Source: Natronolimnohabitans sp. A-GB9
GTDB lineage: Archaea; Halobacteriota; Halobacteria; Halobacteriales; Natrialbaceae
Reading direction: 5' to 3'
Assembly: GCF_030848565.1 (NCBI RefSeq)
Contig: NZ_JAVDDV010000025.1
Coordinates: forward strand, 1 to 39,207
Length of the DNA: 39,207 nucleotides
Part shown: positions 2,525 to 35,431 of the stretch, piece after piece
Numbering within the stretch: position 1 is the first letter of the stretch
Layout: each line of letters starts with the position of its first letter
The notes under the pieces: model-generated
What the model saw: the letters and a program-made list of their open reading frames with translations, nothing else
Told to the model about the DNA's origin: nothing
Databases searched by the model: none
Position numbers and translations under genes: made by a program

Positions 2525-3589
2525 TCAGTCATCGGCTTCGATTTGCTCTTCTTGCTTCTCTTGATGCCGCTCTCGAAGAGGGCGGCAATGGTGTTCGCTG
2601 CCGTACTCACTCCAGTCGGTTTCGTCTGTGGGAACGTAGTCATACTGGCGGCGAGCGTGCGAGCCAGCCTTACCTCCCCACCAGACGAATCCGTCAGAGC
2701 CGTCTTCAGGTTTCCAGGTAATTGGATCCCAATCTGGGTCGAAAATAAGGTAACCACCTGCGAAAATCTCAACCTTGTTCCCTGAAGGTTCGAGATAGTA
2801 GTTGAAGTGAGCCTGGCTAATACCGTGACGGGCCGGGCCGCCGACCATCTCGATGTCGTTCTCTCGCAGCAGGTCTGCCGCCCGCTCAAGTTCACCCGCC
2901 TGACCACCGTCCATATAGAACGCCACATGGTCGATCTTATCAGTCACATTGCCGTCTGGCGGCGACTGAACCAGCGCGATCTCGTGGACCAGAGGTGAAA
3001 CGCTCAGCCACGCGGCGACCTGATTCCCTTCGGGGTTGATGCCTTCTTCCCGAAGGTTGAAGTCGAGGACGTCTTGGTACCAGTCGCTGTATTCGATAAC
3101 ATTGCTCACGTTGAAGTTGACGTGGTCGATTCGTCGGAATCCGACGCCCCGTTCGGGCTTCTGTGCGGGCTGGTTTTTGAGGCGTGAACGGTTCTCCTCA
3201 GAGGCAGTGTCGAACGCTCGGTCGATGTCGTAGACCAGCTCGTAATATTCCGGCGTTTCCCCAGGATGGTCAAATCGAAGGGCACGGCCCTGTCCAGGTT
3301 CTTCGTCCTCGTCAACCCACTCTGTCTCGTAGCCGGACGCCTCGATCCGATCTTTGTACTCCTCAAAGTCACTCTCGTCCTCGAGCATCCAAGCGACGTG
3401 TTTGCATCCCCAATCCTCGCCTTCGCGAAGGATAAGGGTGTAATCTTGCCAGTCACCGTACGCAGCCATGTAGTATGCGTCGTCCTCCTCATGACGGACG
3501 TACATTCCCATCGTGTCCCGGAAGTGTTCAAGGGAAGCTTCGAGGTCTTCACAGTACAGTTCAACATGGGCCAAGGTATGAACTCCCAT
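2525..3589 (-). CDS. xylE: catechol 2,3-dioxygenase (extradiol, VOC fold)
   Basis: It is predicted to open the ring of catechol or methylcatechols next to the hydroxyls, giving 2-hydroxymuconic semialdehydes. Two vicinal-oxygen-chelate domains are visible: an N-terminal one (about residues 1-125) and a catalytic C-terminal one (about 150-285). The Fe(II) facial triad is His156 (in RIDHVNFNVSN), His221 (in KIDHVAFYM) and Glu274 (in SGNKVEIFAGGY), matching the spacing of Pseudomonas XylE (153/214/265). At 354 residues it is longer than XylE (about 307) because of a 45-60 residue charged C-terminal tail. The ATG at 3589 is chosen because a box A lies about 26 bases upstream; an upstream start would add a hydrophobic, non-homologous stretch. 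The gene converges with mhpE and is divergent from an IclR gene. Confidence 0.95.
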   Translation of the reverse strand: MGVHTLAHVELYCEDLEASLEHFRDTMGMYVRHEEDDAYYMAAYGDWQDYTLILREGEDWGCKHVAWMLEDESDFEEYKDRIEASGYETEWVDEDEEPGQGRALRFDHPGETPEYYELVYDIDRAFDTASEENRSRLKNQPAQKPERGVGFRRIDHVNFNVSNVIEYSDWYQDVLDFNLREEGINPEGNQVAAWLSVSPLVHEIALVQSPPDGNVTDKIDHVAFYMDGGQAGELERAADLLRENDIEMVGGPARHGISQAHFNYYLEPSGNKVEIFAGGYLIFDPDWDPITWKPEDGSDGFVWWGGKAGSHARRQYDYVPTDETDWSEYGSEHHCRPLRERHQEKQEEQIEADD

Positions 3590-3610
3590 AGCAAGGACAT
3601 ACAGATTGGG

Positions 3611-3620
3611 ACATTTAATA
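3611..3620 (-). promoter_or_regulatory. box A promoter of catechol dioxygenase gene
   Basis: On the minus strand tattaaatgt is centred about 26 bases before the ATG at 3589, the leaderless arrangement. A CATATGG palindrome half lies just upstream at 3634-3641. Confidence 0.6.
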
Positions 3621-4151
3621 CTAATTGAATATATCATATGGTTCACTCCTGTTATATATTCTCAAACGTGAACTTTAGCAACAAGAGTGGGGTATATCAG
3701 TCCTGTTCGGGACAATGTATGTGCGTGCGAAGAAATGGCTAAAGTTGTACTTGTCGTCACTCGTGTTTTGTATATCTAAACAACCAGTGAAGAGTCGTTC
3801 CTTCGCAATCGGATTCCGATACTGCAGCAAACGTTTTGCATCATCAAACAGAGGGTGACTCCATATGGTTTGTGGAAACATAGCAATCAATAACAGTTGT
3901 CGTCCAATTATTCCGACTGTCCACTGGTTCACGATTAACCGATAATGGACATAGCTCAAAATATGAGCGTAGTGCGTTCCCTACATGTCAACCCCATATG
4001 GTATAGGAATGATCGTTTCAAGCGGCGTAATAGAAATAGACTGCATCATATCGGACAACCTCTGCGATCATCGTAACCGGCACAACCGAAGAAATATTAT
4101 CGGCTACTGAATCGGTGGTTTCCATGAGGACGTATCTAGATGGTAGAAAGG
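3621..4151. other. divergent intergenic region with CATATGG sites
   Basis: About 530 bases between the catechol dioxygenase and iclR genes, A/T-rich and without a convincing gene. It contains tcatatgg at 3634-3641 and perfect ccatatgg palindromes at 3861-3868 and 3994-4001. These could be operators, but an 8-bp palindrome is short. A minus-strand reading frame at 3675-3959 encodes a basic protein unlike its neighbours and is not believed. Confidence 0.4.
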
Positions 4152-4158: not shown

Positions 4159-4181
4159 GAGTAGATGTAACTTTGTGTGGT

Positions 4182-4949
4182 ATGGATGGGAATAACACCC
4201 CACGAACAATTCGCTCGGTTGAGCGAGCTTCCGAGATCATCATGGCACTTACTGACGAGGGAATGATGGGGGTAACTGATCTCTCCTCCAAGCTCGGGAT
4301 CTCGAAAGGGACAGTTCATACACATTTAACGACGCTCTCCCAAGAAGGATTCATAGTCAAAAAGGACGAGAAGTACTGTTTGAGTCTCCGATTTCTGGGC
4401 ATCGCCGAGCAGGCTAAAAACCGGATTGAAATCTACGACCTCGTTCAGAAGGAGGTGGACAATCTTGCTGAACGCACTGATGAGCGGGTGCAGTTTGCGG
4501 TATTGGAATCAAACAAATCTGTTTTCGTCTATCGAGCGAAGGGTGAAAACGCCGTACGGGCGTCCATCAAAATCGGCGAATACGAGCATCTCCATCGTAC
4601 TGCCGTTGGGAAAGCAATGCTAGCATATCTACCCAAACATCGCCTTGAGACCATCATCAGCGAACACGGATTACCAAAGCGGACGGAAAACACGATCTCT
4701 GACCCCGATAAGCTTAAGTCTGAACTTGACACAATTCGAGAACGCGAGTACGCGGTTGATGACGAGGAGTGCGTCCGCGGAATCCGTTGCGTTGCGACCC
4801 CACTTCGAGACGACGTAGGTCGTATACTCGGTGGCATCAGCGTCACTGGACCGGCACGCCGATTGACTGATGAACGGATCGAAAATACTTTGAAGGATAA
4901 TCTGTTGCGAGCTGCGAACGTGATCGAAGTCAACGCTGAACTATCATAA
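4182..4949 (+). CDS. IclR-family transcriptional regulator (first)
   Basis: A DNA-binding regulator of about 255 residues. The N-terminal winged helix-turn-helix lies at about residues 10-65, with the recognition segment LGISKGTVHTHL. A GAF-like IclR effector domain follows, with RTAVGKAMLAYLP and ILGGISVTGPARR. IclR proteins bind small aromatic or organic acids and act as activators or repressors. It sits between the divergent catechol dioxygenase gene and the monooxygenase operon, so control of one or both is the natural inference. The ATG at 4182 fits the box A. The CATATGG sites in the upstream gap are candidate operators. The effector cannot be read from the sequence. Confidence 0.9.
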   Translation: MDGNNTPRTIRSVERASEIIMALTDEGMMGVTDLSSKLGISKGTVHTHLTTLSQEGFIVKKDEKYCLSLRFLGIAEQAKNRIEIYDLVQKEVDNLAERTDERVQFAVLESNKSVFVYRAKGENAVRASIKIGEYEHLHRTAVGKAMLAYLPKHRLETIISEHGLPKRTENTISDPDKLKSELDTIREREYAVDDEECVRGIRCVATPLRDDVGRILGGISVTGPARRLTDERIENTLKDNLLRAANVIEVNAELS

Positions 4950-5543: not shown

Positions 5544-5882
5544 ATGGCAGACCATCCACTGCTAGTACGGTTTAGAACTGACGACTATCCGACACTGGTC
5601 CCAGTAGGCTCCAAAGATACGGTATCAGAAGCAGCTGAAAAGATCACGCATGTTGTTGACAGCAGGGTCCACATTGATCACGACCGGCCGGTTGAGGTCG
5701 TGTTTAAGGGAGAGATCATCAACGGTGACCAGTTGATTAAGGAGGTCTTCGAACCGATGGATTATATCGAAATCCAGTACGAAGGCAGTGAGATTCCCGA
5801 CGGATACGGAGAGTTTCACCCTGCATGGGCCGAGCGTAGCATGCTAGAAAAGTACCCCGAGCACGCGAAACCGACTCAATAA
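5544..5882 (+). CDS. tmoB: diiron monooxygenase gamma subunit (TmoB-like)
   Basis: The predicted small gamma subunit of the hydroxylase (alpha2-beta2-gamma2), which stabilises the complex. At 112 residues it is slightly longer than bacterial TmoB (about 85). The start resembles the ubiquitin-like TmoB fold: PLLVRFRTDDYPTLVPVGSKD, a helix, then short strands including PMDYIEIQYEG. The assignment rests mainly on size, the N-terminal pattern and position: it is the first gene of an operon whose next four members are clear TMO components. It ends 2 bases before the Rieske gene. A distant member of the family or an unrelated beta-grasp protein cannot be excluded. Confidence 0.75.
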   Translation: MADHPLLVRFRTDDYPTLVPVGSKDTVSEAAEKITHVVDSRVHIDHDRPVEVVFKGEIINGDQLIKEVFEPMDYIEIQYEGSEIPDGYGEFHPAWAERSMLEKYPEHAKPTQ

Positions 5883-5884
5883 CG

Positions 5885-6259
5885 ATGTCCACAGAAAAAT
5901 CGAATACTGAGAAGCACTTCCTTTGTGACGACCACGATATCTGGGCCGACGAGATTCGGTTCTTTGAGGTTGGTCGCGAGAAGGTCATGGTCTGGCGTGA
6001 TGATGATGAAACACTCTACGCGTACAGCGCGACCTGTCCACATCAGGATCGTGATCTAGAAGAAACTGGCAAGCGCGAGTGCGTTTGTGGCCCCCATGAT
6101 GATGATAAAACCCTAACATGCACTGCTCACAGTTGGGAGTTTGACTTGGAGTCCGGTGACGGTTTGAATCCTTCCGGTCCTCAACTGAACGAGTATGAAA
6201 TTGGAGTCGAGAATGGTGAAATTTTCGTCGTTATAAATGGAGGAGCTAGCAATGACTAA
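5885..6259 (+). CDS. tmoC: Rieske ferredoxin of the monooxygenase (TmoC-like)
   Basis: It passes electrons from an NADH reductase to the diiron hydroxylase. The two [2Fe-2S] ligand pairs are visible as CPH (Cys51, His53) and CTAH (Cys79, His82), followed by the usual W/F-F-D segment and a terminal strand, EIFVV. Its presence distinguishes this system from three-component phenol hydroxylases, which have no Rieske protein. At 124 residues it is a little longer than TmoC. The loop between the ligand pairs is about nine residues longer than in TmoC and holds an extra CVCGPH (Cys66, Cys68, His71). The 3' end overlaps the effector gene by 8 bases. Confidence 0.92.
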   Translation: MSTEKSNTEKHFLCDDHDIWADEIRFFEVGREKVMVWRDDDETLYAYSATCPHQDRDLEETGKRECVCGPHDDDKTLTCTAHSWEFDLESGDGLNPSGPQLNEYEIGVENGEIFVVINGGASND

Positions 6260-6548
6260 AGTAGGTCCCGTGCTGCGAAACAACACGGAAACGGAAGCAA
6301 TCGTTGAGGCGATCAAACGAGACACCGACGGCGATGTAGAAGTAATCGACCGTCGAGCATACATTCGCGTCGAAACTGAAGATCACTGTGTTGTGACGGA
6401 GGACACACTCGATGAGCTCCTAGGTAAAGGAGCAGTCGAAATGCCAGGCGGAATCGAAGAGCATCTTTCATCGTTCAAGGGTTATATCAAACCACAATCA
6501 GACAGGATTGAATTTGTTAGTGATGTAGAGGATACAAAATCCGAATAA
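6252..6548 (+). CDS. tmoD: monooxygenase effector protein (TmoD/MmoB/DmpM family)
   Basis: A cofactor-less regulatory component that docks on the hydroxylase and gates substrate and oxygen access. At 98 residues it has the family pattern: KVGPVLRNNTETEAIVEAIK, a strand VEVIDRRAYIRVE, then DELLGKGAVEMPGGIEEHLSSFKG, as in TmoD and DmpM. The ATG at 6252 is preceded by ggagga (6239-6244), so unlike the leaderless genes it can be translated from a ribosome-binding site inside the operon message. It overlaps the Rieske gene by 8 bases. A further 15 bases upstream could code, but they are occupied by that site. Confidence 0.88.
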   Translation: MTKVGPVLRNNTETEAIVEAIKRDTDGDVEVIDRRAYIRVETEDHCVVTEDTLDELLGKGAVEMPGGIEEHLSSFKGYIKPQSDRIEFVSDVEDTKSE

Positions 6549-6580
6549 TAACCATTCAGACACACAATAGAGCTACTACC

Positions 6581-7630
6581 ATGAGTGAAAATGACTATCC
6601 AATGAAAGAACAGACGTATCGAACATACAGTACGTGGGATGAACGACGGGTCCCAACGACGTATGACATCGCTACCCGCCGGACTAATTTCGATATCGGC
6701 GAGAACTACGCGGGCGAAGCCCCTAGGCTATCGATGTCGTCGGACACGACGCTATCACAGTGGTATAGCGAATACAGGGAAGGCAGCGTAATCAAGGGGA
6801 ATCCGAAGGACTTTGAGTCCTGGCGTGATCCCCGTGAGCTCACATACGAGAAATACAATGATCTCATGGACGAGCGGGAAGTCGGTATCGAGACGCTCTA
6901 CGAACAGGCCGAAGTGCTGGAACGCGGGACCGAGCGTGACGATGATCCGTGGCTCGAGTTCCAGCTTGAGGGGTTCCTCCCGCTTCGATACCCAGTTCAT
7001 GGACTCCAGATGCTTGCGTCGTACCTGACTATGGTGGCTCCGTCGACAACAATCAGTACGGCGATGTCATTCCAAGCGACAGACGAGATCCGTCGCCAAG
7101 AACGGCTCGCCCGACGAGCGGCCCAACTCGAGAAAGCCTTCCCCGATAAGGGGTTCACGGAGACCGAGCGGGAAACATGGGAGAACAACGAGATGTGGCA
7201 GCCACTCCGTGAGGCCATTGAACGACTCCTCGTCGAATACGACTGGGCTAGGTCGTTCGTCGGAACAAATCTCGTCCTGAAGCCGCTCCTTGACGAACTC
7301 GTGCTGGCTCAGTACTCGACGCTCTTCGATGCAAACGATTCGGAGCTGTATGCACAGGTACTCGAGAACTTCTATCTCGACGCCGATCGTCATTGCGAAG
7401 TCGCAGCGTCAGTCACTGAGCACCTGATCCAGGTTGACGAGGAGAATCGCAAGATAATCCAGGATATCGTCGACGAGTGGTATCCGATCTGTCACCGAGC
7501 AGTAGAGGCATTTGAGCCCGCGTTCGAGTCGATGCCTCCTGTGACGATGTCCTTTGAGGAGGTGATGGCTGATATCGACTCGAGTTACGAGTCCCTGCTG
7601 ACCGCTCACGGACTGTCAGTCCCATCGTAA
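6581..7630 (+). CDS. tmoE: diiron monooxygenase hydroxylase beta subunit (TmoE-like)
   Basis: The beta subunit of the hydroxylase, a ferritin-like helical paralogue of the alpha subunit that carries no iron. At 349 residues it is near the usual length (about 330). Family features include the N-terminal TYSTWDERRVPTTYDIATRR, the segment FLPLRYPVHGLQMLASYL and ATDEIRRQERLARRAAQL, where the alpha-subunit iron ligands are not reproduced. The fifth gene of the cluster, it starts 32 bases after tmoD. A gap of 173 bases to tmoA contains what looks like a separate promoter. Confidence 0.88.
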   Translation: MSENDYPMKEQTYRTYSTWDERRVPTTYDIATRRTNFDIGENYAGEAPRLSMSSDTTLSQWYSEYREGSVIKGNPKDFESWRDPRELTYEKYNDLMDEREVGIETLYEQAEVLERGTERDDDPWLEFQLEGFLPLRYPVHGLQMLASYLTMVAPSTTISTAMSFQATDEIRRQERLARRAAQLEKAFPDKGFTETERETWENNEMWQPLREAIERLLVEYDWARSFVGTNLVLKPLLDELVLAQYSTLFDANDSELYAQVLENFYLDADRHCEVAASVTEHLIQVDEENRKIIQDIVDEWYPICHRAVEAFEPAFESMPPVTMSFEEVMADIDSSYESLLTAHGLSVPS

Positions 7631-7767
7631 GAACGCTTCCGTCGTCGGGCCTTTGTTTTCTGCAGTTATCTTGGATTCTGTCTCGGATCTCATGCATCTC
7701 GAATAGGAACATTTCGTTATCGTTCGTGAGCCGTTCGCTGTGGAACAACTCTATTATCCTTACATAA

Positions 7768-7776
7768 CTTTTATCC
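7768..7776 (+). promoter_or_regulatory. probable box A promoter of tmoA
   Basis: cttttatcc lies about 32 bases before the ATG at 7804. It suggests the catalytic subunit can be transcribed separately from tmoBCDE. Confidence 0.45.
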
Positions 7777-7803
7777 TTGAGTAGATACAGTATACCATTG
7801 TAC

Positions 7804-9342
7804 ATGTTGCCAAACGTCAGGCGTGAAGAGTGGTATCAAACAGCAACCAATACGAATTGGACACCAGAGTACGTCGATGAGGAGGAGCTGTTCCCGGAGG
7901 GAATGTCCGGTAAGGAGCAGTACGATGTTCCAGACGATGGCTGGGAGGAATGGGAAGAAACGTACAAGCAGACGGCGCGTGAGTACTACGAGACCCAGCA
8001 CGAGAAAGACAAGAGCATTTACTCCGTGAGTTCGGCGATGGAACAGTCCGATCTTCCTCACTCGCTTGGGATGGGCTGGGAGGATGTATTGAAGTTTCAC
8101 TTTGCCAGCGTTCCGCTCTTAGAGAGGGCTGCCGTAACCTCTGAGTCGATGTACGCCCGGTTCGCACCAGACAGCGCGTGGCGGCATATGGCGCACTTCG
8201 GGGCTATGGACGAGCTTCGCCATGCGGAACTCCAGTTGCGGATTCCTCATAGTTTCGTCAAGGAGGATTCTCAATACGACTGGAGCAAAAAGATGTACCA
8301 CACTGAAGACTGGGTGTCTGTCGCCGGACGACACTTGTTTGATGACTTCAAGGCTGCCAACGCGATTGACTCCGCGCTTCAGATCACATTCGCTTTCGAG
8401 ACCGGATTCACCAATATGCAGTTCCTCGCTCTGGCATCCGACGCTGCCGATACTGGCGACATTGAGTTCGCCGAGGCTATCTCATCGATCCAAACCGATG
8501 AGGCACGACATGCCCAACAGGGGACCGCGATTATCGAGATTCTCGACAAGTATGACGACCTCGACCGGGCACAGTATCTTATCGACAAGTCGTTCTGGCG
8601 ATGTTATAAGTTGTTCGCCGCGCTAACCGGACCGAGCATGGACTACTACACTCCAGTAGAGGATCGAGAAATGTCCTGGGGAGAGTTCATGGAAGAGTGG
8701 ATCGTAGATCAGTTCCTTGAAAACATCGAGAACACCGGACTCGAGAAGCCGTGGTACTGGGATGACTTCCTCAAAACCATACGTCGCGCTGACACTAGCC
8801 ACTTTATGGCTGGTGGTCACTACCACTGGCGGCCAACTCTCCCAGTCGCAACTCCAGGTGTCACTGAAGAGGACCGTGAGTGGCTCGAGGAGAAATACCC
8901 CGGTTGGGAGGAGCGCTGGGGTTACAAGTGGGACCGACACGCCGAAGCCATGCGGAACGGCAATGTCGAGAAGACGATAGCTGACGACCTTATCGTGCTT
9001 TGTGACCTCTGCCAACTCCCGGCAATCGATTGTGATCATGTTCACGACCACAACCGACTCCGAACGTACGAACACAATGGCGAGACATACTTCTTCTGTT
9101 CAGATCAGTGCCAGTGGATCTTCGAGAATGAGCCTGAACGGTACGCCGATCACAAGTCGATCCTTCGTCGTTTCGTAGATGGAGACATTGAGCCCCAGAC
9201 ACTCGAGGGTGCACTCGAACATATGGGTATGGGCGAAGAGAATGCCCATGAGCGCGGTATCGATTTCCGTGCCCCCGACTGGGGCGACGATTGGAAGGAC
9301 TGGAATCGATCCTCGAGTGTGACCGGCAAGTCGGACGACTGA
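7804..9342 (+). CDS. tmoA: diiron aromatic/alkene monooxygenase alpha subunit (TmoA-like)
   Basis: The catalytic subunit that inserts one oxygen atom from O2 into an aromatic ring or alkene. At 512 residues it is close to toluene 4-monooxygenase TmoA (500). All carboxylate-bridged diiron ligands are present: Glu107, Glu137 and His140 (in MDELRHAE), Glu199 (in FETGFTNMQF), Glu233 and His236 (in TDEARHAQQG), matching T4MO 104/134/137/197/231/234. The conserved active-site Thr is Thr203. A C-terminal YHS domain (about 395-450) has CDLC and CSDQC. The residue matching T4MO Gly103 is Leu106. The ATG at 7804 is chosen for conservation and promoter spacing. It is last in the cluster, unlike bacterial tmoABCDEF. 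Toluene, benzene, phenol or alkenes are all possible; the nearby catechol dioxygenase favours aromatics. Confidence 0.96.
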   Translation: MLPNVRREEWYQTATNTNWTPEYVDEEELFPEGMSGKEQYDVPDDGWEEWEETYKQTAREYYETQHEKDKSIYSVSSAMEQSDLPHSLGMGWEDVLKFHFASVPLLERAAVTSESMYARFAPDSAWRHMAHFGAMDELRHAELQLRIPHSFVKEDSQYDWSKKMYHTEDWVSVAGRHLFDDFKAANAIDSALQITFAFETGFTNMQFLALASDAADTGDIEFAEAISSIQTDEARHAQQGTAIIEILDKYDDLDRAQYLIDKSFWRCYKLFAALTGPSMDYYTPVEDREMSWGEFMEEWIVDQFLENIENTGLEKPWYWDDFLKTIRRADTSHFMAGGHYHWRPTLPVATPGVTEEDREWLEEKYPGWEERWGYKWDRHAEAMRNGNVEKTIADDLIVLCDLCQLPAIDCDHVHDHNRLRTYEHNGETYFFCSDQCQWIFENEPERYADHKSILRRFVDGDIEPQTLEGALEHMGMGEENAHERGIDFRAPDWGDDWKDWNRSSSVTGKSDD

Positions 9343-10977: not shown

Positions 10978-11001
10978 TCTGGGGATGGTTATAAGTGAGT
11001 G

Positions 11002-11196
11002 ATGTATCCATTGACAGCACCTGTCACAGAGGCATGCACACACTGCCCACATTTTGACGAGTTCCACGGGTCCTGTACCCATGAGTTACGTCAGTCGGTC
11101 ATTCAGGAAATCTCGAGCAGCGAAAACGAGACTTGCCCGGTGTTTCCAAAGATATATGCCGAGGCAATGCAGTCACTGGAGGCACAGCAAGCGTGA
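11002..11196 (+). CDS. small Cys/His-rich hypothetical protein
   Basis: A 64-residue protein with four Cys and several His: ACTHCPHF (Cys12, Cys15), GSCTHEL (Cys25) and ETCPVF (Cys45). Such spacing could bind zinc or an iron-sulfur cluster. A helix follows each Cys group. The start at ATG 11002 fits the box A; the GTG at 10999 is an alternative. It is the last of the small genes trailing the monooxygenase cluster, with the same orientation and its own promoter. I recognise no family; regulator, metal handling or assembly role are all open. Confidence 0.6.
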   Translation: MYPLTAPVTEACTHCPHFDEFHGSCTHELRQSVIQEISSSENETCPVFPKIYAEAMQSLEAQQA

Positions 11197-31506: not shown

Positions 31507-32502
31507 TATAATAGACATTAGAAGTAATCACTCACTTCTGGAGGCGAAAACTGATCAAGAGCGGTATCAATTGCTGTTGTGAGTTCAAGAACCGGGTCAA
31601 AGAACCGGTTGCTAAGTGCCGGTTGGAGTCGCCTACAACACTTTCCGGCCGGATTTAGTTCAGGTGAATTGCTGGCAATGTCACGGGATCTAGGTCGTCA
31701 CGTGCCGCTCGGGTCGTGACGACTGACACCTGAAAATACGGCGCTTCATTCAGTGCAATAATCAAACATATTTGAGCCCTTAATATGACGCAAGGACGAA
31801 TTTTTTATCAAACCTAACAGACGATCTCAGTCGCGTTGTCCAGACATTCGGTAGATGGCCGCGTGCCGCGCAAAAACTACGCGGCACGCGGTTCGACTTG
31901 GACAGATTTCTTCGTTTGGTCGATACAGACTACTGTGGCGTCCATCTCCCGCCGCTTTTTTTGAGTTCGTCGCGGAACGCTTCTTGCTCGTCAGCATCAG
32001 CTTCAGCGACTGTACGGCGTGGCTTTTGATAGCTCAATCCTGCTTCTTTGAGCAACCGTCGGCAGCTCGGGATTGAGTACTCAACACCATAGGTTTCGTG
32101 AAGGTACTGCTGGACGAGCGCCGGCGTCCACGCAGGTGCGTCAATGCCAACTTCTTCGGGAGATTCGTGGACGGCGTCTTCGAACTCTTTTTGCTCTTGT
32201 TCTGAGAGTTTTCGTTTTCTTCCAGATCGATGAGCATCAGTTACGGCCTGCTCAAGTGACGCGTCGGTGTCGAGTCGCTTGAGCCAGCTATAGATTGTCC
32301 GTCGCTGAACATCGTACCACTCGGCTAGTTCAGTCTGCGTAAGGCCGTTTTTGTACGCTATTGCTGCTAAGAGCCGTTGTGTCGGCTTCTTTCCTTCCAC
32401 ATTGTCGAGAGCATCTTGTAATTCCTCGATAGAAATCTCGTCGAGATGATCCATTACACTCAACGACATTATCTGAGTAAAAAGTTCTAACGGTTACTAT
32501 AG
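31507..32502 (-). mobile_element. IS630-family element, copy 2 (internally deleted)
   Basis: About 1 kb with imperfect terminal inverted repeats of about 27 bp (tataatagacattagaagtaa / rc of the right end tatagtaaccgttagaac) at TA-containing flanks. The coding strand is minus. ORF A (31930-32454) is intact; the second frame starts VVCIDQTKKSVQVEPRAA and then runs into a stop. The centre of the DDE domain is missing, and its end reads in two frames: APYFQVSVVTTRAARDDLDP and then RRLQPALSNRFFD to SDYF. The same deletion is present in copy 1, so both descend from one deleted ancestor. Confidence 0.85.
31930..32454 (-). CDS. IS630-family transposase, N-terminal frame (ORF A)
   Basis: A frame of 174 residues from MDHLDEISIEELQD, containing two helix-turn-helix/winged-helix units: LTQTELAEWYDVQRRTIYSW at about 43-62, then a second DNA-binding part (WTPALVQQYLHETYGVEYS). 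It ends KKSGGRWTPQ. At the A7 run (31956-31962, T7 on the plus strand) a -1 shift would continue as KKRREMDATVVCIDQTKK, the normal start of the DDE domain, so a full transposase would need programmed frameshifting. Here the downstream part is deleted, so only a DNA-binding fragment can be made. An upstream ATG at 32469 would add five residues. Confidence 0.8.
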   Translation of the reverse strand: MDHLDEISIEELQDALDNVEGKKPTQRLLAAIAYKNGLTQTELAEWYDVQRRTIYSWLKRLDTDASLEQAVTDAHRSGRKRKLSEQEQKEFEDAVHESPEEVGIDAPAWTPALVQQYLHETYGVEYSIPSCRRLLKEAGLSYQKPRRTVAEADADEQEAFRDELKKSGGRWTPQ

Positions 32503-32583: not shown

Positions 32584-33372
32584 CTATAGCTCCGGAGGAC
32601 GCTTTCCGATTATCTCTTCAATTGCTTCTCGGAACATTTCGATGTTTTCCTTCCTATCAGACGCTGTCGACGCTTTAGTCTCAGGCATTCTCGTTTTCTT
32701 GGCGAGTTCCATCTTCCCTGTGTGCCCCTTCTTATCGCCCATATAAGAGTAGTACTTCATAAGCTCTTCACCGATAAACAGGTCCTCGAGCGCGTTGATG
32801 TATGGGTCCGCTTCAGGCCCCCATTCATTGATTGGTTTGATCTCCCACTTGCAGACGTCGTCACCCATTCCAAGACACTGCGTCTCAAGTCCCAGAACAG
32901 GACGCTCGATGAAGCCGCTACTCCATGCGGATGCGTATCCCATTACACTCCAGCAGACGGGCTGATCGGCTTCTCCGTTATAAATAACATGCTGTTGAGC
33001 TTCGTAAGAATTGTGCCACGTCCCGGCATAGTAGAAGTCACCAGCCTCCCGATCGTACGAGATTTCATCGATCTCTGCGGCAACAAATCCTCTATCGGTG
33101 TGAATTTTGGGACCTGCCTTAAGAAGTTCCTCTTCCGTATCGAACTCGTAGTTCATCTTAAGTTGTAAAAAGTCCGAATAGCCAGACTGGAACCCGAACC
33201 GGAACAGAAACTTGCGCGTCTCATCGATCCCGAGGTTATTCAAGAGTTGCTGGCGCAAAAGCCCTATCGAATCAGCATTGAGAACTAACATACGATTGTT
33301 CCGGAACGTGTTCACGCCCGGATCCGTACCGTATTTTAAGTCTTCCTCGAGGTCAAAGTCACTTGCATCCAT
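32584..33372 (-). CDS. stand-alone XylR-N/V4R aromatic-sensor protein
   Basis: A 262-residue protein matching the aromatic-sensing half of XylR/DmpR/PoxR. Residues about 25-120 are the XylR N-terminal domain (NRMLVLNADSIGLLRQQLL, FRFGFQSGYSDFLQLK, AGPKIHTDRGFV, FYYAGTWHNSYEAQQH). Residues about 135-190 are the V4R domain (PVCWSVMGYASAWSSGF, then CLGMGDDVCKWE, whose Cys pair corresponds to the zinc ligands). In bacteria these domains bind toluene or phenols and control a sigma54 AAA+ ATPase. Neither that ATPase nor an HTH is present, and archaea lack sigma54. The C-terminal 65 residues are charged and helical. It may sense aromatics and act through a partner. It is flanked by IS debris, far from the monooxygenase genes. 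Confidence 0.9.
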   Translation of the reverse strand: MDASDFDLEEDLKYGTDPGVNTFRNNRMLVLNADSIGLLRQQLLNNLGIDETRKFLFRFGFQSGYSDFLQLKMNYEFDTEEELLKAGPKIHTDRGFVAAEIDEISYDREAGDFYYAGTWHNSYEAQQHVIYNGEADQPVCWSVMGYASAWSSGFIERPVLGLETQCLGMGDDVCKWEIKPINEWGPEADPYINALEDLFIGEELMKYYSYMGDKKGHTGKMELAKKTRMPETKASTASDRKENIEMFREAIEEIIGKRPPEL

Positions 33373-33565: not shown

Positions 33566-33930
33566 GTGTCCGAGCAACCAAAGCAAGCGGACGGTGAAAT
33601 CCACGAAGACCAGCTCATCAACGTTCTCACCGGAGCGTTTACGCTGGATCTGGGAGAGAACGCTGAAATCGACCCGGAGGACATTTTCGAGGTCCTCGTC
33701 GGCACTACCGCCGACGGGACCTCGATTTCCTCGCTCTGCAAGAAGAGTGAAACCGCCCCCTCTGGCACCGACGTTCTCTACCACCTCCGAACCAAGTTCG
33801 ATCTCGAAACCGTCGAGTCAACCGGAAACACGCTTCTCCACCAAGATGTTCTCAAAACCCACCCCAGCAGGTGGAGGTCGTTGCAGACCTCCACCTGCGA
33901 CCCTACTACGGTAACGAAGACACGACGGGT
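33566..33930 (+). mobile_element. N-terminal fragment of ISH3-family transposase
   Basis: Reads QADGEIHEDQLINVL, LGENAEIDPEDIFEVLVGT, TSISSLCKKSE and LYHLRTKFDLETVESTGNTL, the halophile ISH3 transposase start. After a one-base frame change near 33864 it continues as VEVVADLHLRPYYGNED in another frame. The remaining two thirds of the transposase is absent; the sequence passes straight into a plasmid-type gene. Confidence 0.8.
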
Positions 33931-35431
33931 GTTTGGTGTTCACGAGTCGACTGCACCGGCCGCGGAAGCTCCGGAACCACTCCAGGACGTTCTGGGGGCG
34001 GACAGTTCGGACCTCGATCATGCACTTGCTCACATTATTCGGAACCTCCAACTTCGAGAGGACTCCCGCGAGGACAATGGCTGGATAGACGCAAAAACCG
34101 TCGATGTAGAGCTACGAACGGCATTTGAGGAGCAAAATGCAAATTCCGATCTCCCCTCTTTCGAGGAGCTCGCTGATGTCCGTCAGCGGTCTCGTCTCAT
34201 TGAGGTGGGGTTAAATCAGACGTCCCGTGACGTCGCTGTTCGGCTTACAGACGCTGGTGAATCGGTCGTAGCACTCGACACCGGGGAGAGCAGGGCAGCA
34301 GGTAGTATCCGCCATGACGAGGCGATCACACGGATCGACGCTGCATTGACGAAGATCGGCTGTACCGTCTCGGTTCCAAAACAGGACGGAAGCGAACAAC
34401 CTGATGCGAGAGCGGTTCATCCTGGCTGTGACCGCCCCTTCGCGATTGAAGTGGAAACGACAACCCCTGATAACCCTGCTCAGGTACTGGCAAACCTTCG
34501 AAAGGCCCAGGACGCCAGTGAACACCCGATCTTCGTCGTCGAAGAGGCAACGCCGGAGACCTACTGGGCAGAGCGGGTCGATGGGATTCTCTCGTCCCCC
34601 GTCCGAGAGCTCTCGACCGGAGAGACACGCCTGTACACCAAAGATCGAGCACTCTCGTTCAACGGTGGTGCAACGACAGACGGTGGCGTAACGGCAGTCC
34701 GACCAGCCACCGAAAACAGCAAGCAGACCGTCTGGAAACGCCAAGACGGACGAATCGTCCTCGAGAATGGTCAGGGCAACAGTCTCGTAGAGACGGCATC
34801 GGTAGCAGAACTCTCGAGGGACCATGTTCCGGCCGTGTACAGCTATGATCCAGCTACTGGAGAGTACATCGTTTCCGAACAGGGACTGCAGTACGTCTAT
34901 GATTCGAAAGAGGCGTTTGCCGAGAAGTGGACCCGAATCATGGAACCGTTCGTTCCCGAAGCCGAGCTTTCCTATCCCGGCTATGGTCCTGATGACTATT
35001 CGATCGTCGTTCTTCGAACCGATGGTCAACCGGTCGTCTACACAGATGGAGAGACTGCCGCACTTGAGACGCTGCTCGAACATGAAGACGTGTGTTCAGC
35101 GAGCAAGAGCAGTGATGAAGAGGAATCCTCGTTCGAGTCCAGCGAACTGCTCCTAGCAGAGATTGCTGATGATGCAGATGCAGTTGTTGGACGATTCGCG
35201 AGTCTGTACCTCATTGAGGAGCCGACGAGTACGGTCGCTGCCAGCACAGTGTACGATTACTATGAACAGTGGGCAAAACAGCATGACATTGATCCGGATA
35301 GCAAGAGCTGGTTCGCCCGTCGGTTAGGCAACCACATCGAACTCAATCGAATAACGGAGCGACGTGACGGTGAGCTTGTCCGGTGTTACGAGGGTCTGAG
35401 ACTAGATCACCAAGGGACACTCGAGGAATAG
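33566..35431 (+). CDS. chimeric ORF: ISH3 N-terminus fused to plasmid-type protein
   Basis: An open frame of 621 codons from a GTG. The first 100 residues are ISH3 transposase, then about 20 out-of-frame residues, then from about residue 122 (near 33930) a different acidic protein. That part includes FAIEVETTTPDNPAQVLANL with IFVVEEATPETYWAERVDGIL, which resembles a nuclease- or ATPase-associated domain of plasmid proteins. The C-terminus ends in a probable winged helix (VAASTVYDYYEQWAKQHDI, SWFARRLGNHI), similar to tails of viral/plasmid primase-helicases. The native N-terminus was probably lost when the ISH3 fragment was joined. Translation start and function are uncertain. It lies upstream of a primase-like gene in the same direction, implying a replication or transfer module. 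Confidence 0.6.
   Translation: MSEQPKQADGEIHEDQLINVLTGAFTLDLGENAEIDPEDIFEVLVGTTADGTSISSLCKKSETAPSGTDVLYHLRTKFDLETVESTGNTLLHQDVLKTHPSRWRSLQTSTCDPTTVTKTRRVFGVHESTAPAAEAPEPLQDVLGADSSDLDHALAHIIRNLQLREDSREDNGWIDAKTVDVELRTAFEEQNANSDLPSFEELADVRQRSRLIEVGLNQTSRDVAVRLTDAGESVVALDTGESRAAGSIRHDEAITRIDAALTKIGCTVSVPKQDGSEQPDARAVHPGCDRPFAIEVETTTPDNPAQVLANLRKAQDASEHPIFVVEEATPETYWAERVDGILSSPVRELSTGETRLYTKDRALSFNGGATTDGGVTAVRPATENSKQTVWKRQDGRIVLENGQGNSLVETASVAELSRDHVPAVYSYDPATGEYIVSEQGLQYVYDSKEAFAEKWTRIMEPFVPEAELSYPGYGPDDYSIVVLRTDGQPVVYTDGETAALETLLEHEDVCSASKSSDEEESSFESSELLLAEIADDADAVVGRFASLYLIEEPTSTVAASTVYDYYEQWAKQHDIDPDSKSWFARRLGNHIELNRITERRDGELVRCYEGLRLDHQGTLEE

Follow-up and report, generated by a model that had tools for sequence, protein, structure and literature searches.

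A sensor and helical module paired in haloarchaea: a possible two-part aromatic receptor with H-NOX-like architecture

Results

In the window, the 39,207-nucleotide stretch of Natronolimnohabitans DNA analysed here, an XylR_N-V4R aromatic sensor is fused to a previously undescribed helical piece of 63 amino acids that in other haloarchaea is encoded by a gene of its own. We tentatively propose that the two constitute a two-part haloarchaeal aromatic receptor, in which the XylR_N-V4R core would be served by an H-NOX-like distal subdomain, kept as a separate, tightly spaced gene and fused once in monooxygenase-bearing lineages, and whose signal would go to an output acting in trans. Neither the obligate 63-aa protein nor its probable relationship to H-NOX formed part of the original prediction made for this gene. 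To our knowledge archaea are devoid of the sigma54 machinery, and work on aromatic sensing by XylR_N-V4R proteins has mostly concerned the input part of sigma54 activators. In the open-access literature we found no account of archaeal XylR_N proteins.

The sensor gene and its domains

The reading frame starts with ATG, encodes 262 aa and is organised as follows.

32584..33372, minus strand: coding sequence of the XylR_N-V4R sensor with the fused 63-aa helical module (ORF, Pfam, PDB matches, alignment with relatives)
33052..33354, minus strand: XylR_N domain, residues 7-107, including His91, which corresponds to MopR His106 (Pfam, 1.6e-22)
32833..33018, minus strand: V4R domain, residues 119-180, including Trp119, which corresponds to MopR Trp134, and the putative zinc ligands Cys140, Glu163, Cys166 and Cys174 (Pfam, 9.1e-9)
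32584..32772, minus strand: 63-aa helical module, residues 201-262 plus the stop codon, present as its own gene in split-form relatives and probably like the H-NOX distal subdomain (alignment, profile and fold matches)

Pfam assigns XylR_N and V4R alone to this protein (V4R with 35.7 bits against a cut-off of 31), with no match to Sigma54_activat, AAA+ or HTH families, and all 12 haloarchaeal XylR_N open frames are at most 273 aa long. Among solved structures in the PDB the best sequence match is MopR (5kbe, 1.4e-34), followed by CapR/DmpR (6iy8, 4.4e-30) and PoxR (5fru, 4.8e-24), and the frame indeed encodes, as originally predicted, a protein with the fold of an aromatic sensor and no recognised ATPase or DNA-binding domain. 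Comparison of the sensor part with other fused relatives gave pN values of 0.17-0.20 and pS values of 0.78-0.88, indicating purifying selection. In the AlphaFold model of the whole chain the sensor part was poor (mean pLDDT 54), owing to the shallow alignment.

An obligate partner, fused or split

Alignment of the relatives revealed that in eight genomes the sensor ORF stops at about residue 202, and that what corresponds to residues 201-262 of the window protein is there a separate 63-aa ORF, which begins 2-3 nt downstream of the sensor, with a GGAGG overlapping the last sensor codons at seven of these eight split loci. XylR_N was detected in 12 of 391 Halobacteria genomes, and an independent search with the 63-aa protein returned the same 12 of 391, indicating that sensor and module form an obligate pair. 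The two are fused in five of these genomes, the window's included, and split in seven, Halorientalis pallida providing an eighth split example additional to the 12. The original prediction had regarded the sensor as standing alone; residues 201-262 are instead a distinct conserved module, absent from that earlier reading. Mean column identity of the module is 78%, and pN is low relative to pS for both sensor and module, in fused as well as split forms, which points to purifying selection on both parts.

We rejected the idea that the split forms represent a single frameshifted gene, given that the small ORF begins with a start codon of its own, is preceded by GGAGG in all split loci but one and displays low pN compared with pS.

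Scans of the module against Pfam and NCBIfam assigned it to no family (the best match, to CENP-B_N, was weak, with E 0.038, and there was none to Fis HTH), a PDB sequence search with the module profile gave no significant match, and searches of plasmids, viral contigs and 197 Halobacteriota genomes yielded no convincing relatives beyond the haloarchaeal pair. In the phylogenetic tree the fused forms cluster together (support 94/90) and the deepest haloarchaeal branch, L033, is a split form; fusion therefore looks like the derived state, the rooting being uncertain owing to long branches.

Ligand pocket and zinc site

The MopR pocket residues described in PMC10715001 were mapped by aligning the window protein with MopR. 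His91 and Trp119 are the counterparts of His106 and Trp134, the two residues that hold the hydroxyl of phenol in MopR (PMC10715001), and the zinc-ligand positions C155, E178, C181 and C189 correspond to C140, E163, C166 and C174; all six residues are invariant in the 13 haloarchaeal sequences compared. Several residues lining the pocket are changed: the position of MopR F132 is occupied by Gly in 13 out of 13 sequences and that of Y165 by Trp in the haloarchaeal sensors, while that of Y176 (residue 161 of the window protein) is Gly or Ala in the fused forms, Ser in L033, the most divergent split form, and Glu in seven split sensors (L026, L028, L032, L034-L036 and L023). With the anchoring residues invariant and the lining partly replaced, the haloarchaeal sensor is likely to bind an aromatic hydroxyl compound in a pocket that differs from that of MopR, and Glu at the Tyr176 position hints at another ligand for the split subfamily.

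Fold of the module and its relation to H-NOX

The 63-aa protein, predicted alone, is composed of four helical segments (mean pLDDT 80). The best structural matches of this model are all to residues 2-71 of H-NOX proteins (Nostoc, human soluble guanylate cyclase beta1 and others), with up to 62-63 module residues aligned and Z scores of 5-6, values that for a small helical protein may reflect a common helix arrangement; the next family reaches Z 3.7, HTH proteins scoring 3.7 or less. When the module was compared by hhalign with an H-NOX alignment built here, a score of 25.0 was obtained over 54 columns, covering H-NOX residues 11-65, with a probability of only 55%. This score was reached by none of 1000 column shuffles (maximum 20.9) and by none of 233 windows of the monooxygenase, IclR, dioxygenase and sensor alignments (maximum 17.7), and the module scored 10.9 against the IclR HTH. 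We consider it probable that the module is related to the H-NOX distal helical subdomain, and put it no higher than this because of the hhalign probability and the ease with which small helical folds match one another.

An H-NOX protein has two halves, a helical distal one and a proximal one containing a four-stranded sheet (PMC8196705), and V4R and H-NOX proteins have been reported to be alike in sequence and fold (PMC5847659; PMC10933270). The spacing of the zinc ligands in the window protein (C140/E163/C166/C174) is nearly that of the Shewanella H-NOX, C139/H161/C164/C172 (PMC7108781). As the module resembles the distal half and V4R the proximal one, the haloarchaeal pair appears, judging from profiles and predicted folds, to comprise the two halves of a receptor resembling H-NOX, arranged in permuted order or split between genes, with a phenol pocket replacing the heme.

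The helices could also be read as a minimal DNA-binding (HTH-like) domain, which would make the fused protein a one-component regulator with an N-terminal phenol sensor and the split form a small DNA-binding protein set by the sensor. The module does contain a stretch, LAKxTNLPxTKA, that resembles an inter-helix turn, XRE-type HTH proteins are found among its structural matches (Z 2.3-3.7), three of 13 module members weakly match CENP-B_N (best E 0.038), and Bacillota relatives couple the same sensor to an HTH (PucR). Nevertheless, we regard a DNA-binding module as unlikely, since the structural matches to H-NOX are clearly higher, the profile score against H-NOX is far above that against the IclR HTH and the putative recognition helix comprises just four residues (34-37) in the predicted model.

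Aromatic catabolism in the genomes with the sensor

The toluene-type monooxygenase that had been ascribed to the sensor's genome is encoded in the window itself, together with other genes of relevance.

5544..9342, plus strand: toluene/phenol-type di-iron monooxygenase cluster (TmoB, Rieske, MmoB/DmpM, two Phenol_Hydrox), co-occurring with the fused sensor (Pfam)
2525..3646, minus strand: extradiol (catechol 2,3-dioxygenase-like) enzyme, present at fused-sensor loci (Pfam, locus comparison)
4173..4949, plus strand: IclR-family regulator adjoining the monooxygenase cluster and related to regulators found at other fused loci; candidate DNA-binding output (Pfam, locus comparison)
10999..11196, plus strand: 65-aa four-cysteine protein, present at five of five fused-sensor/monooxygenase loci (locus comparison)

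PF02332, the monooxygenase hydroxylase family, occurs in five of the 391 Halobacteria genomes, exactly the five that carry the fused sensor, and TmoB scores above its cut-off in those same five. The association between PF02332 and XylR_N has p = 1e-8 by genome and 2e-4 by genus (5/5 PF02332 genomes among the 12 XylR_N genomes, n = 391). All five fused genomes and none of the seven split ones gave long, high-scoring matches to the extradiol dioxygenase (E < 1e-75), and full-length matches to gentisate dioxygenase were obtained in 5/5 fused and 1/7 split genomes; among 13 comparison genomes, one (G003) has the extradiol and one (G378) the gentisate enzyme. Intradiol dioxygenase was absent from all 25 genomes tested and HpaB hydroxylase, as another aromatic route, from all sensor-bearing genomes tested.

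Co-occurrence of sensor and monooxygenase cluster across the Halobacteria, as suggested originally, thus holds for the fused subfamily and fails for the split one, whose seven genomes are without PF02332 or a full-length extradiol dioxygenase, six of them also without a full-length gentisate dioxygenase. Homologues in genomes with no aromatic catabolism, which were to count against an aromatic role, are accordingly found in the split subfamily and not in the fused subfamily to which the window gene belongs. Given that no monooxygenase or extradiol route was detected in the split-form genomes, the ligand may not be a growth substrate, and the split form may sense something else.

At three loci (L027, L030 and L031) only a few kb separate the fused sensor from the monooxygenase genes, to which it is oriented 3' to 3'; in the window the distance is about 23 kb. 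The neighbours of the split forms share no pathway among the nearest genes scanned (Usp, COX1, UPF0179, DUF5820, amidohydrolase and unnamed genes). On either side of the window sensor lie an HTH ORF whose match is IS630-transposase-like (31930-32469) and a 621-aa ORF (33566-35431) whose residues 37-98 match an ISH3-family transposase, suggesting rearrangement at that end of the window.

Some further features of these loci were observed. Between 5544 and 11196 the window has hydroxylase, TmoB, Rieske and MmoB/DmpM genes, yet no reductase gene was seen alongside. The 65-aa protein has conserved cysteines (CxxCPxxDxFxxxCxH...CP) and no Pfam match; relatives are encoded at L027, L030, L031 and L037, in 0/7 split-form genomes and in 1/13 comparison genomes, with a second copy elsewhere in several genomes. 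A catalase-peroxidase-like gene (PF00141) is located near the fused sensor in two genera (L037:15379-17313 and L031:1391-3541).

Discussion

The best reading of these data, which we hold to be about equally likely right or wrong, is that of a receptor in the cytoplasm which would recognise a phenol-like aromatic compound, act independently of sigma54 and pass its signal on in trans by means of a movable helical subdomain resembling that of H-NOX. When phenol binds to DmpR, both helix alpha6, at the C-terminal end of the sensor, and the B-linker shift (PMC7264223), and in H-NOX proteins ligand binding rotates the distal subdomain (PMC8196705), the changed conformation then acting on a partner kinase (PMC7108781, PMC8196705). 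By analogy with both, we infer that binding of the aromatic compound would move the module and that a separate output protein would read this movement. The V4R core would dimerise and close on the ligand, and closure would shift the C-terminal helix, equivalent to helix alpha6/B-linker of DmpR, which continues into the module in the fused protein. This shift would displace the module relative to the V4R core, as NO binding does with the H-NOX distal subdomain, so that the moved surface could contact the output protein, the IclR regulator being one candidate. In the fused subfamily, such a contact would control the monooxygenase and meta-cleavage genes. Points that weigh against this reading are the altered lining of the pocket compared with MopR, the inverted order of the halves with respect to H-NOX, the split-form genomes in which neither a monooxygenase nor an extradiol route was detected, and the 23 kb or so between sensor and monooxygenase genes in the window.

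According to the original prediction, the sensor would act together with an IclR regulator or with TFB in a ligand-dependent way, in which case the module would be a partner-docking surface. No DNA-binding domain is recognised in the sensor itself, IclR regulators adjoin the monooxygenase cluster at four of the loci with a fused sensor (the window, L037, L030 and L027), and the proposal is compatible with the trans-signalling receptor described above, of which it could be the output step. As an explanation in its own right it seems quite unlikely, considering that among the nearest genes scanned at the split-form loci no neighbour is conserved and that IclR proteins usually bind small effectors of their own.

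It could also be supposed that the protein is not a regulator and binds or carries small molecules, sequestering the aromatic substrate or passing it to the monooxygenase, with the split form handling another hydrophobic compound. V4R proteins are predicted to bind ligands and can occur alone (PMC2253512), the split form is found in genomes without the monooxygenase and no recognised output domain is present. However, the characterised XylR_N-V4R domains known to us are sensors, and the conservation of a dedicated second module through fusion speaks for the transfer of a signal, which makes a carrier improbable. That the gene is a decayed, functionless remnant of a transferred bacterial sigma54 activator is very improbable indeed, despite the position of the window copy between transposase-related ORFs, for the strong purifying selection on sensor and module in both forms contradicts decay, the pair has been retained in twelve genomes of six genera and no ATPase remnant lies downstream of the sensor.

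A phenol-type sensor has thus been retained under selection in archaea together with a new obligate helical partner, its fused form tracking the aromatic monooxygenase clusters exactly. Since the sensor is joined to a helical module and not to a DNA-binding engine, a different route for passing on the signal that an aromatic compound is present is indicated. Should the partner prove to be a distal subdomain of the H-NOX type, phenol sensors and nitric-oxide receptors would be linked by architecture, beyond the V4R fold that they share, and the H-NOX receptor architecture could be built from two genes and serve aromatic ligands rather than heme gases. In such a small two-gene system, the signal-transfer step is open to direct testing.

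Comparison with known systems

The combination of XylR_N and V4R, considered in the original prediction to belong to sigma54 activators, is not confined to them. The bacterial sequences closest to the haloarchaeal sensors in the tree, which come from Bacillus, Alicyclobacillus and Parageobacillus, have XylR_N-V4R followed by GGDEF_2 and a PucR-type HTH_30, with no sigma54 domain, and the Parageobacillus gene (L084) is located in a catechol meta-cleavage cluster. The sensor is therefore portable across outputs, and its occurrence without sigma54 is less anomalous than had been implied. These Bacillota regulators (L024, L025 and L084) share the sensor and the absence of a sigma54 domain with the window protein, but are 642-648 aa long, possess their own PucR-type DNA-binding domain (GGDEF_2, HTH_30), which the window protein lacks, and no 63-aa module was seen in them.

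The A domains of MopR, DmpR (CapR) and PoxR resemble the window protein in XylR_N-V4R order and in length, with about 30-35% identity, as well as in the His and Trp that anchor the phenol hydroxyl and in the Cys3Glu zinc site (PMC10715001, PMC7264223). In contrast to these activators, the window protein has the 63-aa module in place of the B-linker, AAA+ domain and Fis HTH, and its pocket-lining residues are partly Gly, Ala, Glu or Trp in the haloarchaeal family. The stand-alone archaeal V4R proteins (M. jannaschii p1460, Ignicoccus) and TRAPP Bet3 also have the V4R fold and no output domain (PMC2253512), but they are without the XylR_N half, and neither a phenol-anchoring His/Trp pair nor a 63-aa partner is reported in them.

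The likeness to H-NOX would extend to both halves: V4R resembles the proximal one, which also has a zinc site with Cys ligands, and the 63-aa module probably corresponds to the helical distal one. Whereas in H-NOX the distal half is N-terminal to the proximal one in a single chain, the haloarchaeal module is C-terminal or encoded by a separate gene, so that the order is reversed or split, and, instead of the heme-binding Y-x-S-x-R motif, which is absent from the 262-aa translation, the window protein has what appears to be a phenol-type pocket.
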